Shown here one piece after another: positions 17,736 through 23,752 of a stretch of DNA of 64,000 nt. Within the stretch, counting starts at the first letter, position 1. Each line of letters opens with the position of its first letter. The stretch is from positions 186,001-250,000 of the forward strand of contig NZ_WJPP01000001.1 in assembly GCF_009649225.1 (NCBI RefSeq), read 5' to 3'. The translations under genes and the position numbers were made by a program. Origin of the DNA: Spiribacter salilacus (GTDB taxonomy: Bacteria; Pseudomonadota; Gammaproteobacteria; Nitrococcales; Nitrococcaceae). The notes beneath the pieces are model-generated. The model worked only from the letters and a program-made list of their open reading frames with translations. It searched no databases and was not told the origin of the DNA.

Positions 17736-18714
17736 GCCTAACCCGCCTAGCCAACCGCTATCTTGGCAAAAGAGCGCTTGGGAGCGTTTTAATCAGCAAC
17801 TAGCGCTTGGGCATACGCCGCATGCCACCCTCGTCGCCGGCCCGGTTGGGGTGGGCAAAACCGTCTTTGCTCAAGCCATGGTGGCGAGATTACTTTGTGA
17901 AACCCCCGTTGCCTCCCATGCCTGCGATCAATGCCGCGGATGTCGATTGAGGCTTGCCGGAAGCCATCCCGATTTGAAGGTGACCCAGCCGGAGGAGGGG
18001 GGTAGCGGAATCATCCGTATCGACGAAATACGCCAATTAACGGAATTTACCCATTTATCCAGCCAATATGGCGGGGTGCGCGTTGGGCTGCTTATGCCGG
18101 CAGAAGCAATGAATCGACATACCGCCAATGCTTTGCTGAAGACGCTCGAGGAGCCACCTGAACAGGTGGTGTTAATCTTGGTTAGCCATGCCATAGAGCA
18201 ATTGCCGGCGACCATTCGCAGTCGCTGCCAAGTCCTCCCTATACCGACTCCGGCTTCAGCAGTGGCCACTGAGTGGCTAAAAGCGCAAGGCGTTGATCAA
18301 CCCGCCGCGGCACTGCATTTAGCCGGTGGAGCGCCGCTACGGGCGCTGAGCATGGTGAATGAGCAAGAGGATGCGAGATACCTAGAGCTGGGAGCGGCCG
18401 TTGCCGGTTTGGTCCGAGGAAAAGGCAGTGCCGTGAGTATTGCGGAGGATTGGCGGGAGTGGGGCGCTTTAAAAACCGCACAGTTGATGCAACGTCTAGT
18501 GAGCGATTTGCGACGGGCCCAAGTCAGTCAACCCCCCGAGGGGTTACCCGCAGAAGCGCTTCAAAACATGGCTAAGCGACTATCAGCTGCCCAACTGCAT
18601 ACGTTAATGGATCAGCTCACAAAACTGCGCATGGCGGCTCAGCAGCCGCTAAGCAAAGAATTATCGATTGAAGCCTGCTTTTTACTGTGGACTGAACACG
18701 CTTATGCTCATTGA
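17728..18714 (+). CDS. holB: DNA polymerase III delta' subunit
   Basis: Clamp-loader subunit. 328 residues. Has a P-loop-like GPVGVGKTVF, the zinc module with Cys spacing C-x8-C-x2-C-x2-C (LLCETPVASHACDQCRGC) as in E. coli, and the SRCQ sensor (TIRSRCQVLPIP). In Pseudomonas a PilZ gene sits between holB and tatD; here tatD begins inside the end of holB. Confidence 0.94.
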   Translation: MAEPNPPSQPLSWQKSAWERFNQQLALGHTPHATLVAGPVGVGKTVFAQAMVARLLCETPVASHACDQCRGCRLRLAGSHPDLKVTQPEEGGSGIIRIDEIRQLTEFTHLSSQYGGVRVGLLMPAEAMNRHTANALLKTLEEPPEQVVLILVSHAIEQLPATIRSRCQVLPIPTPASAVATEWLKAQGVDQPAAALHLAGGAPLRALSMVNEQEDARYLELGAAVAGLVRGKGSAVSIAEDWREWGALKTAQLMQRLVSDLRRAQVSQPPEGLPAEALQNMAKRLSAAQLHTLMDQLTKLRMAAQQPLSKELSIEACFLLWTEHAYAH

Positions 18715-19510: not shown

Positions 19511-20704
19511 AATACGGAAACCGGCAATATAGGTGCCTGCCATTGAACCCGTCGCTGCGAATAAGAAGACCAGCAGCGTACGCGACACCCGATTATGCCA
19601 CCAGCCGCGCCAGTGTTTGACCGCGTCTCGCAGCTCCCGAAAGTCGGCAACTCTTGGTCGGCGCATGGCGAGCTCAATCAGTGAAGACACGAGGCCGGCC
19701 CCGATGGTCGGATTTAACGAGGTTAGTGGCGCTGCAAAAAAGCTGCCTACAATCGTAACGGGATGTGCACGAGCAAGCGCTGAGCCCAATGCACACAACG
19801 AACCATTAATCACAACCCATTCAACAATAAGTCGCAGCCCCAAATCAGTTCCGCGACTAAAACCAATGGCAAAGCCAGTGAGAATGACAGCAACTAAAAT
19901 CCAAGGGAGAAACTTGGGCCAGCGTGCGGGCGGCGGCAGCGTTTCTAGTTGCTGACGCGTTTCTCTGGCTTGTCGGGCTGAAATATCCGCGCTTTCACTC
20001 AATGCCTGTTCTACACCGTTCAAATGGCCAGCGCCCATAACAACCAGAACCCGTTTTGGCCGCTCAGCGGCTTGTTTAAGCTCTTCTAAGAGCCGTGCGG
20101 CCATGTATCGGTCGCGCTCTGCTATAAGCGGCTCATGCAGAGCAGGGGACTGAGCCGCAAAGTCACGGAATGTTGCCTCCAGCATATCGCCCTGTTTTAA
20201 ACGTTCAATTTCGTCATCCTCAATGTCTTGTCGTGATATCAGTCCTAGAAAGAGGCCTGTGACGATTGTTGGACGCTGCCACCAGGGAATGGAGCGATAA
20301 ACTCGCTTTAACGTGGTCCCGATATCTCGATCAACCAACCAAAGGGGCTTGCCAGAGCGCCGCGCACCAGCCGCCGCGGCTTCTAGTTCTGCACCGGGTT
20401 TAATATCGAACTGATCAGCAAGCCGTTGTTGGTAGGCCCCTAAGGCAAGGCTTGCCATTACCATGCCTGCTTTACCGCTACGCACAGCTTGAAACAGGTC
20501 GAGCTGTTCTAGTGAAGCGGGATCCGTCAGGCTTCGATGACGTGACGGGCACAGCTCAACCGCAATAGCATCATGGTTACCTTCAAGGATTTCATGCTCT
20601 ACATCTGCCACGCTTTCATGCGAGACATGGGCGGTACCCAAGAGGGTGATCTCAGTTTCACCAATGGTCACCCGACGGATAAGATGGTTATCTTCAATGC
20701 GCAT
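19493..20704 (-). CDS. TraB/PrgY-type (GumN-like) membrane protein
   Basis: 403 residues. The N-terminal half is the TraB domain: TLLGTAHVSHESV, AVELCPSRH, LVVMGAGHLNGVE-like signature with conserved Glu/His. The C-terminal third has several hydrophobic segments (about 275-400), so it is an integral membrane protein. The family is related to PrgY pheromone shutdown proteins and may be a membrane protease; its function in gammaproteobacteria is unknown. I start at ATG 20704 (MRIEDNHLIRRV), 8 nt after the upstream dehydrogenase; a GTG at 20752 overlaps that gene. The start has no Shine-Dalgarno and CATAAT lies 7 nt upstream. Confidence 0.85.
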   Translation of the reverse strand: MRIEDNHLIRRVTIGETEITLLGTAHVSHESVADVEHEILEGNHDAIAVELCPSRHRSLTDPASLEQLDLFQAVRSGKAGMVMASLALGAYQQRLADQFDIKPGAELEAAAAGARRSGKPLWLVDRDIGTTLKRVYRSIPWWQRPTIVTGLFLGLISRQDIEDDEIERLKQGDMLEATFRDFAAQSPALHEPLIAERDRYMAARLLEELKQAAERPKRVLVVMGAGHLNGVEQALSESADISARQARETRQQLETLPPPARWPKFLPWILVAVILTGFAIGFSRGTDLGLRLIVEWVVINGSLCALGSALARAHPVTIVGSFFAAPLTSLNPTIGAGLVSSLIELAMRRPRVADFRELRDAVKHWRGWWHNRVSRTLLVFLFAATGSMAGTYIAGFRILDALI

Positions 20705-20712
20705 AATATATA

Positions 20713-21471
20713 TTATGTTAAATAAGCCTGAGGACCATTTCGGATATCCCACTCCTGCGCACTGAATAACCCCGCGTCGGTCTTTTCTAGTACGTTATGC
20801 ATATAAGCCGCCACTTGTTCTGGCGTGGCGAGACTACCTGAGCTCTTTAGCGCCTGAAATTGCTCAACCGCCGGGAAATCCGCTTCTGTCTGAGATCTGA
20901 TGAGCGCTTGCATGGGTGTATCGACAACGCCAGGACGTAAACTGCCAACGGCAACATCCCGTTCATCCAGTTCTTGGCGCAAAATCTCATAAGCCATATG
21001 TAAAGCGGCTTTTGTCATGCAATAAGCACCCCATCCCGGATAGGCCGTATGCGCAGCACCAGAAGAAACATGCAAAATACGACTGCCCGCTGGCATCTGC
21101 TCAATGAGTGCCGCACTTAGACTGATCGGGCCCTCAACATTCACTGCCCAGGCCTTTCGCAGCGCGTCGGTGCTTTGCGCCAAAAGCGGGCCGACCGGCT
21201 CTAAAATACCGGCATTGTGGACCAACCACTGAATCTGCTTACCGCGCAACGCCTTAACGATGTTGGCGCGACCCTCGGCCGTACTAACATCCGCCACACA
21301 GGGCTCAATATTGGCTTGATCGCCTTGTGTCTCTTCAAGCGCCTCCGCCCGGCGACCAATAATCAAGACATGCTGCCCGTGCTCCGCCAAACGTTTTGCC
21401 AACGCCTGACCAATGCCACTGCCTCCGCCGGTAATAACCGTGGTTTGCTGCATCGTTTCGCCTACTCCCAT
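20713..21471 (-). CDS. Short-chain dehydrogenase/reductase
   Basis: About 252 residues (246 if the second ATG at 21453 is used, which starts MQQTTVITGGGSGIG). Classical SDR: cofactor loop TGGGSGIG, NNAG-equivalent VHNAGILEPVG, Ser in ILHVSSGAAH, and YCMTK with the Tyr/Lys pair. The arginine-rich IIGRRAE after beta-2 suggests NADP preference. Substrate not identifiable. It follows the D-2-hydroxyacid dehydrogenase with the stop and ATG adjacent, so the two are co-transcribed, likely with traB. Confidence 0.88.
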   Translation of the reverse strand: MGVGETMQQTTVITGGGSGIGQALAKRLAEHGQHVLIIGRRAEALEETQGDQANIEPCVADVSTAEGRANIVKALRGKQIQWLVHNAGILEPVGPLLAQSTDALRKAWAVNVEGPISLSAALIEQMPAGSRILHVSSGAAHTAYPGWGAYCMTKAALHMAYEILRQELDERDVAVGSLRPGVVDTPMQALIRSQTEADFPAVEQFQALKSSGSLATPEQVAAYMHNVLEKTDAGLFSAQEWDIRNGPQAYLT

Positions 21472-22431
21472 TTAAGTTACCTGCCGAATGGGTTCGCCGG
21501 CCTTCCAAGCCTGAATATTTTCCACGGTTTGATCCACAATCCGCTGCCGCGCTGGCTGACTACCCCAGGCAGTGTGTGGGGTAACGATTAGGTTGGGAAT
21601 ATCACTGGCTAACAGGGGGTTACCATTTCTGGGTGGCTCTTCACTCAACACATCAATGCCAGCGCCTGCAATTTCTCCTGTTCTCAATGCGTCAGCAAGG
21701 TCTTGCTCATTCACAATACCGCCCCTGGCGGTGTTAATAATGAACGCAGACCGCTTCATGCGCGCTAAAACCTCCTTATTGATGAGGTTTTGGGTGCTTG
21801 GCGTTAGCGGGCAATGCAAAGTCACGACATCCGCTTTTTCTATGGCGGTTGCAAATGCCACTCGGCCGCTGCGAGTTTCTTTGGCATCGGGGCGCTCTGC
21901 AATTTCCACCTGCATACCCAATGCAGCAGCAAGACGCCCTACCGCACTGCCAAGCTCTCCATGACCAACAATTAAGAGCGTCTTACCGGCAAGTTCTTCA
22001 ATGGGGTAGTCAAGAAAACAAAAATGCCGCGCTGACTGCCAGCGACCGCTAGCAACGGCATTGGCATACGGTAGCAATTGAGTGCTAAGGGCTAACATTA
22101 AACAAAGCACATGTTGGCTTACCGCTGCCGTGCCATAGGCGCGGCAGTTAACCACATCAACCCCGTGCGCTTTAGCGGCCGTTAAGTCGATGTTGTTCAC
22201 GCCGGTGGCGACTACGCAGATCAGTTTTAGCTGCGGGAGCGCAGCCAGCAACTCTGCGTTAACCGGCAGTTTATTAATGATAACGCAATCGGCGTTACCA
22301 ATTCGCTCGGCCATTTCGGAGGGATCTGTGGCACCAAATGCCGTGTATTGGTCAAAAGATGCCACTAAGGCCGACAGATCCAGATCGCCAGAAGCAAGCG
22401 TATCTTGCTCCAGCATTACACCATGACGCAT
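21472..22431 (-). CDS. D-2-hydroxyacid dehydrogenase (hydroxypyruvate/glycerate type)
   Basis: 319 residues from ATG 22431 (MRHGVMLEQDTL), which has GGAGA 9 nt upstream; a longer frame from 22503 lacks support. The NAD loop is VGHGELGSAVGRLA; catalytic residues lie in NTARGGIVNEQDL (Arg), DVLSEEPP (Glu) and VTPHTAWGS (His). The RAYGTAAVSQHVLCLMLAL block is typical of glycerate dehydrogenase / hydroxypyruvate reductase homologues, but the substrate is a guess. First gene of a three-gene minus-strand unit with the SDR and traB. Confidence 0.88.
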   Translation of the reverse strand: MRHGVMLEQDTLASGDLDLSALVASFDQYTAFGATDPSEMAERIGNADCVIINKLPVNAELLAALPQLKLICVVATGVNNIDLTAAKAHGVDVVNCRAYGTAAVSQHVLCLMLALSTQLLPYANAVASGRWQSARHFCFLDYPIEELAGKTLLIVGHGELGSAVGRLAAALGMQVEIAERPDAKETRSGRVAFATAIEKADVVTLHCPLTPSTQNLINKEVLARMKRSAFIINTARGGIVNEQDLADALRTGEIAGAGIDVLSEEPPRNGNPLLASDIPNLIVTPHTAWGSQPARQRIVDQTVENIQAWKAGEPIRQVT

Positions 22432-22696
22432 GCGGGGTCTCTCCTGTTTTATACAGGCTGCAAGCCTACACCAGCCGGAGGGGTTTGGCACGGCGTTGTA
22501 CACAAGTAGGATCTATTCCAATGAACTTAAATTCGAACCGACGAGCGGTAGCAGACTTAGCTGATTGTTACAAATCAGAGTCTCATTAAAATGCTGTAAG
22601 TAGTTGTTAAAAAACGTTTTTTTAAAATTGACCAATTATCGCACAATTTAACGCAAGGCCCCGTGATATAAGGGTTCTTACGCTGATCCTTGGAAT

Positions 22697-22731
22697 TAAT
22701 CCACAATCTTATCCACAGGTTCTGTGGAAAA
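22697..22731. promoter_or_regulatory. Cluster of three DnaA-box-like sites
   Basis: TAATCCACA (22697-22705, one mismatch), TTATCCACA (22709-22717, perfect consensus) and, on the other strand, TTTTCCACA (22723-22731, one mismatch) lie within 35 bp. The first two are in direct orientation, the third inverted. Next to them is an AT-rich tract. No oriC neighbour genes (dnaA, mnmG, rpmH) are present, so a DnaA-regulated promoter or a DnaA titration/reactivation site is more likely than the origin. Confidence 0.55.
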
Positions 22732-22762
22732 CTTTTCCTGCGTTTTTTGCTTGACAACGGGC

Positions 22763-22768
22763 TACAAT
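22763..22768 (+). promoter_or_regulatory. Candidate -10 of a leaderless dusB transcript
   Basis: TACAAT ends 6 nt before the dusB ATG, so a start 7 nt downstream coincides with the A of ATG. There is no Shine-Dalgarno. I see no good -35 at 16-18 bp. The perfect TTGACA at 22751 is only 6 bp away, too close to serve. Confidence 0.4.
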
Positions 22769-22774
22769 CGCCTC

Positions 22775-23752
22775 ATGAAAATTGGACCCTACTCTCTCAA
22801 CGGTTCTGTGCTGCTAGCACCCATGGCTGGAGTAACAGATCGGCCGTTTCGCATTCTTTGCCGGCAACTGGGGGCAGCGCTTGCCGCGAGTGAGATGGTC
22901 GGGGCGAATCCGATGCTCCAACACACACGTAAATCGCAACTCAAACGCAATCATGAGGGAGAACCCTCGCCAAGAGTGGTGCAAATTGCAGGCGCTGACC
23001 CATCGCAGTTGGCTCAAGCGGCGCGTTTTAACGTGGCTGAAGGGGCTGAAATCATCGACATTAATATGGGCTGCCCCGCAAAAAAGGTTTGCCGCAAGCT
23101 AGCAGGCTCTGCCCTACTTGCTGATGAACCCCTGGTGGCCCGAATTCTTGAGGCCGTTGTTAGCGCTGTTGATGTTCCCGTCACGTTAAAAATGCGCACA
23201 GGACCATCGCCAGACCGAAGAAATGCCGTGCAAATCGCAAAGCGCGCTGAGGAGATCGGCATTGCCGCATTAACCCTCCATGGTCGCACCCGCGATCAAC
23301 AGTATCGGGGCGAGGCGGAGTACGACACGCTAAAAGCCGTGCGCGATGTCGTCACCCTACCCCTCATTGGCAATGGCGATATCACCGATCCCATAAAGGC
23401 ACGCTGGATACTTAAAAACATCGGCTGTGATGCAGTCATGATCGGTCGTGCAGCACAAGGGCAGCCATGGATTTTTAAGCATATCCAGCATTTTCTGGAT
23501 ACCGAAGAGCTGTTAGACCCGCCACCCCCTGAGCTCATTAGCAGCTGGATGACACAACATATTAGCGGTGTGCATGCGCTTTATGGCACCGAGCAGGGAG
23601 TAAAAGTAGCTCGCAAGCACCTAGGCTGGTATTTGCAAGATCAACCCGATGGTCAGCGCTGGAGAAAGGCGTTGATGCAGGTGGAATCTAGCGCAGAACA
23701 ACTAAAATTGGCGCGCCAGGCGATTAGCGCCGTAGCGTCCGTTGCGGCTTAA
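22775..23752 (+). CDS. dusB: tRNA-dihydrouridine synthase B
   Basis: FMN enzyme that reduces U17 in the tRNA D-loop. 325 residues from ATG 22775 (MKIGPYSLNGSVLLAPMAGVT), matching the DusB start; a longer frame from 22724 covers the DnaA-box region and is rejected. The active-site Cys lies in DINMGCPAKKVCRKLAGSAL, with RNA-binding HGRTRDQQYRGEA and ANGDIT-like GNGDITDP. In enterics dusB is followed by fis; here it runs into the convergent rhomboid gene (29-nt overlap). Confidence 0.94.
   Translation: MKIGPYSLNGSVLLAPMAGVTDRPFRILCRQLGAALAASEMVGANPMLQHTRKSQLKRNHEGEPSPRVVQIAGADPSQLAQAARFNVAEGAEIIDINMGCPAKKVCRKLAGSALLADEPLVARILEAVVSAVDVPVTLKMRTGPSPDRRNAVQIAKRAEEIGIAALTLHGRTRDQQYRGEAEYDTLKAVRDVVTLPLIGNGDITDPIKARWILKNIGCDAVMIGRAAQGQPWIFKHIQHFLDTEELLDPPPPELISSWMTQHISGVHALYGTEQGVKVARKHLGWYLQDQPDGQRWRKALMQVESSAEQLKLARQAISAVASVAA

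Follow-up and report, generated by a model that had tools for sequence, protein, structure and literature searches.

The sites closest in kind to the locus reported here are the DARS (DnaA-reactivating sequence) loci of Escherichia coli, for which we draw on parts of the published descriptions. At these loci, ADP-DnaA on the head-to-head boxes I and II loses its ADP (PMC5742627, PMC8682772), and the cores of DARS1 and DARS2 have identical box spacing, with box I opposite to boxes II and III (PMC5742627). Both loci are located between oriC and terC, DARS1 at 17.5 min (PMC5010248). When placed near terC, DARS2 causes asynchronous initiation and a lower origin concentration, an effect that is smaller than that of its deletion (PMC5010248). 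Another E. coli locus, datA, is close to oriC and inactivates DnaA (PMC5010248, PMC5742627), in which it differs from the DARS-like site described below.

DARS itself is already known, and in the accessible parts of the open-licence literature we found no report of a natural DARS at the terminus or at dif. Here we describe a putative DARS whose location at the terminus, beside dif, is the new part. It is found in the window, by which we mean the whole 64,000-nucleotide stretch of Spiribacter salilacus DNA that was analysed.

A DnaA-box cluster with the geometry of DARS cores

The window contains three DnaA boxes within 35 bp, one of them perfect, as a sequence-only reading of this DNA had pointed out (Table 1). 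That reading had also judged the density of the boxes to be unlikely by chance. Taken singly, boxes are unremarkable: the window has 16 at up to one mismatch, versus 11.4 expected. Only the arrangement is special, and this arrangement is rare. Allowing up to three mismatches, the full DARS-core pattern has one match in the window, compared to a mean of 0.02 in shuffled sequences (a match in 2 of 100 shuffles), and one match in the whole genome, which is the window site, with the reversed control pattern also giving one match at that loose setting. Furthermore, we found 11 exact copies of TTATCCACA in the genome (2.235 Mb, 18 contigs). Around the 10 copies outside the window, at least 690 bases were read on either side: the copy located in the gap between dnaA and dnaN has a neighbouring box (up to one mismatch) within 100 bp, and the other nine have no second box at that threshold and distance. 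Similar clusters, whose frequent occurrence the sequence-only reading had named as grounds for refutation, are thus rare, and the window cluster is the strongest found in the S. salilacus genome. The box cluster is real and its arrangement is beyond chance.

Next we compared the cluster with the E. coli K-12 DNA around uvrB and mutH. Each of these two regions has a group of three boxes, spaced 14 and 12 bp from start to start, with box I opposed to boxes II and III; the two groups were chosen by published description and map position, not from published base coordinates. Read on the minus strand, the window cluster has the same orientations and the same 14/12 spacings as both E. coli cores, and thereby both features that define a DARS core, namely three boxes with box I opposed to II and III and the fixed spacing common to DARS1 and DARS2. 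The likeness to DARS1, in the bioD-uvrB gap, consists of this geometry, whereas its neighbours and its map position are other than those of the window site, which is at dif. With DARS2, upstream of mutH at 64.0 min, the window site shares the core geometry and perhaps an IHF-like site on the box III side, but the genes are different and the E. coli IHF candidates are nearer to the core. Since the window site is at dif, beside dehydrogenase and dusB-like genes, and not beside mutH between oriC and terC, we do not class it as the DARS2 locus itself. The earlier suggestion of a reactivation locus like DARS is supported by the exact core geometry and by the conservation reported below.

Table 1. 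Positions of features in the window, with those of the second core at other loci of the genus
Feature	Position	Strand	Basis or remark
dif site AATGCGCATAATATATATTATGTTAAAT	20696..20723	+	25/28 identical to E. coli dif
Short-chain dehydrogenase (SDR) gene, between dif and core	20713..21471	-	Pfam PF00106
2-hydroxyacid dehydrogenase gene	21472..22434	-	Pfam PF02826, PF00389; open frame extends to 22503
Distal DnaA box TTGTACACA	22496..22504	+	box scan; genus alignment; 213 bp from box II
IHF-like site TAACAACTACTTA	22597..22609	-	consensus match, 1 mismatch; 122 bp from start of box I
Fis-consensus match GTGCGATAATTGGTC	22630..22644	-	same place in G008
Conserved block adjoining box III (CCCTT ... 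ATTG ... TTCACCA)	22631..22689	-	12-genome genus alignment
DARS-like core, boxes I-II-III read on minus strand	22697..22731	-	orientations and start-to-start spacings 14, 12; exact match to 18-base core pattern
DnaA box III TAATCCACA	22697..22705	+	box scan; 1 mismatch
DnaA box II TTATCCACA	22709..22717	+	box scan; perfect
DnaA box I TTTTCCACA	22723..22731	-	box scan
dusB-like tRNA dihydrouridine synthase gene	22775..23752	+	Pfam PF01207
Second core (locus and position)	L206 8516; L207 8443; L208 8586; L209 5639; L256 15675; L259 526; L264 18908		

The cluster lies at the replication terminus

The DARS-like core lies 2.0 kb from a dif site. This is a single 28-bp XerCD-type site at a change of GC skew, and the sole match in the genome at up to two mismatches. 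The dif site was the main surprise of the analysis; neither it nor the distal DnaA box had figured in the sequence-only reading.

The window lies within a 619-kb contig on which all 5 stretches sampled to the left of dif (one of which extends 1.3 kb beyond it) show positive GC skew and all 8 sampled on the right show negative skew; the cumulative GC skew of the window reaches its maximum at 18517. On the contig that carries dnaA, all 4 stretches sampled to the left of dnaA have negative skew, and 2 of the 3 on the right have positive skew. These signs place the terminus in the window region and the origin at dnaA. Consistent with this assignment, all 10 stretches sampled up to 815 kb of the complete relative G006 have positive skew and all 10 from 825 kb onward have negative skew, with dif at 823.6 kb. 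In complete relatives, half a genome separates the window-type site from dnaA, which has boxes of its own. Furthermore, in the sampled stretches, motifs of the sequence GGGNAGGG, which we take to be the FtsK-orienting motif, point toward dif in 5 versus 2 cases on the left and in 13 versus 2 on the right. The probable oriC of this genome lies in the dnaA-dnaN gap (L082, 5643-5865); it is A/T-rich, and its end next to dnaA carries one TTATCCACA together with two copies of TTATCCCCA.

The core and its closeness to dif are conserved in the genus

Conservation of the boxes in close relatives had been set beforehand as a test of the cluster, and it was borne out: the exact core is present at the same locus in 13 of the 14 genomes of the genus. 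Mean identity among 12 genus genomes is 0.876 at the core positions, versus 0.305 and 0.523 in the flanks. Twelve genus genomes have the core and dif on a single contig, at a distance of 2.0-2.7 kb in 11 of them and of 8.4 kb in G002; in G003 and G004, contigs end between the two.

The order of the neighbouring genes around the site is conserved in the genus. For dusB, 8 of the 14 genus genomes, some of them incomplete, have no close match. The gene is missing beside the core in G001, G006, G007, G012, G013 and G018, where a rhomboid gene follows directly and the core is kept, and within the genus the closeness of core and dif is also kept in genomes without dusB. In the window, dusB is not followed by fis, unlike in E. 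coli, and the Fis gene is on another contig (C14).

Outside the genus, we found the core 1.2 kb from dif in G048, 3.0 kb in G018, 9.1 kb in G017 and 10.8 kb in G031, representing four further genera in two families. In G014, which belongs to the same order, the core is about 1.26 Mb from dif, and in G015, G016 and many others the core and dif are on different contigs, where the distance is not measurable. In G048, the core has a DnaJ/CbpA-like gene pair on one side, while the other side carries an SDR-like gene, dif and a gene resembling holB (by eye; holB by match). The core, the SDR gene, dif and holB are therefore common to G048 and the window, and dusB and the dehydrogenase gene are gone in G048.

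We also searched 59 genomes, a set that includes the window's own. The two-box pattern (boxes II and I) was found in 48 of them and the full core, at up to one mismatch, in 52, with the reversed control giving 0 in all 59 for either pattern. These two-box loci were fetched by boxes II and I alone, the third box not being part of the query. Near the 57 distinct two-box sites we found 34 third boxes (up to one mismatch), of which 23 have the DARS spacing and 6 its mirror image, a position that the palindromic pair allows, the remaining 5 lying elsewhere. At this threshold, 25 of the 57 sites have no third box, and at up to two mismatches 45 of the 57 have one at the DARS spacing. The 2.5 Mb of fetched DNA contains 48 distinct three-box groups, 28 of them with the DARS geometry, the two E. 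coli cores included, a count biased by the use of the two-box pattern to fetch many of the loci.

Anatomy of the flanks

DARS2 of E. coli has an IHF site in its regulatory region as well as the Fis sites FBS2-3. In 10 of 13 genus members, the position in G008 being corrected for a short contig end, there is an IHF-consensus match (up to one mismatch) on the same strand as box I and +121 to +123 from it. G005 has none at +121 to +123 and a perfect match at +81 on the other strand, and G004 and G013 have no IHF-consensus match at up to one mismatch beside the core. In E. coli, the two IHF candidates lie at +93 and +109 with 3 bp between them, versus +122 in the window; PMC4245941 gives the same 3-bp distance for IBS1 and IBS2 of E. 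coli. Two of the 13 genus members, G000 and G008, have a Fis-consensus match at +87; G015 and G048 have one at +86, and the other 11 genus members have none at +87 or +86. The genome has genes for Fis (45% identity to E. coli Fis) and Hda (58% to the G006 protein).

The distal box, about 213 bp from box II, is TTATGCACA in 11 relatives and TTGTACACA in the window, in an alignment of 12 elements. As for the A/T run with the palindrome AAAAAACGTTTTTT in the sequence-only reading, the tract with AAAAAACGTTTTTT is present at about 22609-22623 but is not conserved in the 12-genome alignment, and the palindrome was rejected as a working part. An ATATTCA string in common with E. coli DARS2 (at +93 in 7 of 13 genus members and at +97 in E. 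coli) was judged too weak to use.

DARS-type cores in the class and second cores in the genus

At up to one mismatch, the core was found in 184 of 237 sampled gammaproteobacterial genomes and in 149 of 189 genera, with 0 matches to the reversed control among the rows inspected, which suggests that DARS-type cores are common in Gammaproteobacteria. This spread is wider than the E. coli relatives for which DARS is named in the accessible part of PMC4245941. For dif (up to two mismatches), 164 of the 237 genomes have a match and the control gave one, in G270. Among the matches listed, whose core and dif positions were compared by eye, the core is within about 15 kb of dif only in G000, G227 (14.0 kb), G280 (14.1 kb) and G158 (15.1 kb); absences in this comparison are not firm, because it was made by eye among the matches listed and many of the genomes are in pieces. 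G227, G280 and G158 (L248-L251) belong to one other family, and the genes around the core in G227 and G158 have no match to those of the window. In G038, ten near-identical core-like matches (one mismatch each), several of them within 2.14-2.29 Mb, are perhaps a repeated element carrying DnaA boxes.

The idea that the genus has no core besides that at the terminus was rejected, as a second core is found in G003-G007 and G009-G011. It has no mismatch in G005 and one in G003, G004, G006, G007 and G009-G011, and with two mismatches it is also found in G001, G002 and G012, with the same flanking genes. This second, weaker core is located 0.36-0.39 of the way from dnaA to dif (G005, G006, G009). 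The genome of the window has no second core at up to three mismatches; G008 and G013 were checked up to one mismatch.

Alternative explanations

Boxes adjoining an A/T-rich tract are what the window site has in common with oriC, and because the conservation of the boxes is so strong we took up the possibility, also considered in the sequence-only reading, that this strongest cluster of the genome is a chromosomal origin or a second origin. An oriC is expected at a change of skew from negative to positive and at the dnaA locus, whereas the skew here changes from positive to negative, dif is adjacent and dnaA is elsewhere. The GC skew and dif led us to reject the origin reading, to which we give almost no credence. 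A promoter region under DnaA control, serving dusB and the divergent 2-hydroxyacid dehydrogenase gene, would agree with the position of the site between them and with the distal box 60-70 bp upstream of the likely start of the dehydrogenase; such a region would not need the exact three-box geometry common to DARS, however, and the core is kept in the genomes named above that lack dusB beside it and in G048, which has neither gene. We regard this reading as improbable. Since the cluster is kept where dusB is missing, it is probably not the dusB promoter element that had been proposed. Clustered strong boxes and an IHF-like site would also suit a passive DnaA titration site, and non-coding DnaA boxes with an IHF-type site are indeed found in datA, where boxes 2, 3 and 7 surround one IHF site. 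In the comparison with the DARS1 and DARS2 cores, the geometry of the cluster is nevertheless theirs, and PMC5010248 describes datA and the B. subtilis DnaA-box cluster as losing function after a move to the terminus. We consider titration still less likely than the promoter.

A different proposal accepts the element as a DARS and takes its place beside dif as inherited gene order without meaning for replication timing. Here the evidence leaves us evenly divided. The gene order around the site is conserved within the genus anyway, so that the closeness to dif may be inherited; furthermore, same-order relatives carry cores away from dif (measured in G014), and the weaker second core of the genus is mid-arm. 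Against this, G018, G048, G017 and G031, which represent four further genera and two families, keep the core 1.2-10.8 kb from dif despite changed neighbours; in G048, for example, dusB and the dehydrogenase gene have been replaced. A third family (G227, G280, G158) has its core 14-15 kb from dif, with genes unmatched to those of the window in both of the genomes examined.

Discussion

Our best explanation is that a DARS occupies about 22496-22731, at the terminus of replication and 2 kb from dif. On the strength of the sequence comparisons we consider this quite likely, an assessment that covers a DARS at the terminus and excludes an effect on timing. Several observations speak against it: only 2 of 13 genus members have the Fis-like site at that place, the IHF-like site is absent from its place in 3 of 13, the IHF candidates of E. 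coli are at +93 and +109 instead of +122, cores are elsewhere in other genera (about 1.26 Mb from dif in G014), and E. coli DARS2 is less effective near terC (PMC5010248). The latter result shows that position matters, and it argues for a different balance in this lineage if a DARS is to work at the terminus.

From the core geometry, we infer that the candidate element would reactivate DnaA, with DnaA binding, ADP release and the action of IHF and Fis as presumed steps. As in E. coli, ADP-DnaA would bind boxes I-III, and the DnaA molecules on boxes I and II would face head to head, resulting in the release of ADP. The apo-DnaA would then leave and take up ATP, and the IHF-like site beside the core would assist through a bend in the DNA. 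Replication reaches this locus among the last parts of the chromosome, so the dosage of a terminus DARS would double only at termination, and the supply of ATP-DnaA for the next initiation could rise after the round is done.

That the terminus position sets this timing is a further step. Under this more speculative proposal, which we consider rather unlikely, the DARS would be held next to dif so that termination, via the last-copied locus, its dosage doubling or events at dif, triggers the rise in ATP-DnaA for the next initiation, providing a cis-acting link between the end of one round and the beginning of the following one. Our best reading is that the natural place of this DARS is beside dif. 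It has long been asked how bacteria connect the end of one replication round with the beginning of another, and a lineage that keeps a DARS core at dif offers a natural way to test whether initiation timing is set by the position of a DARS.
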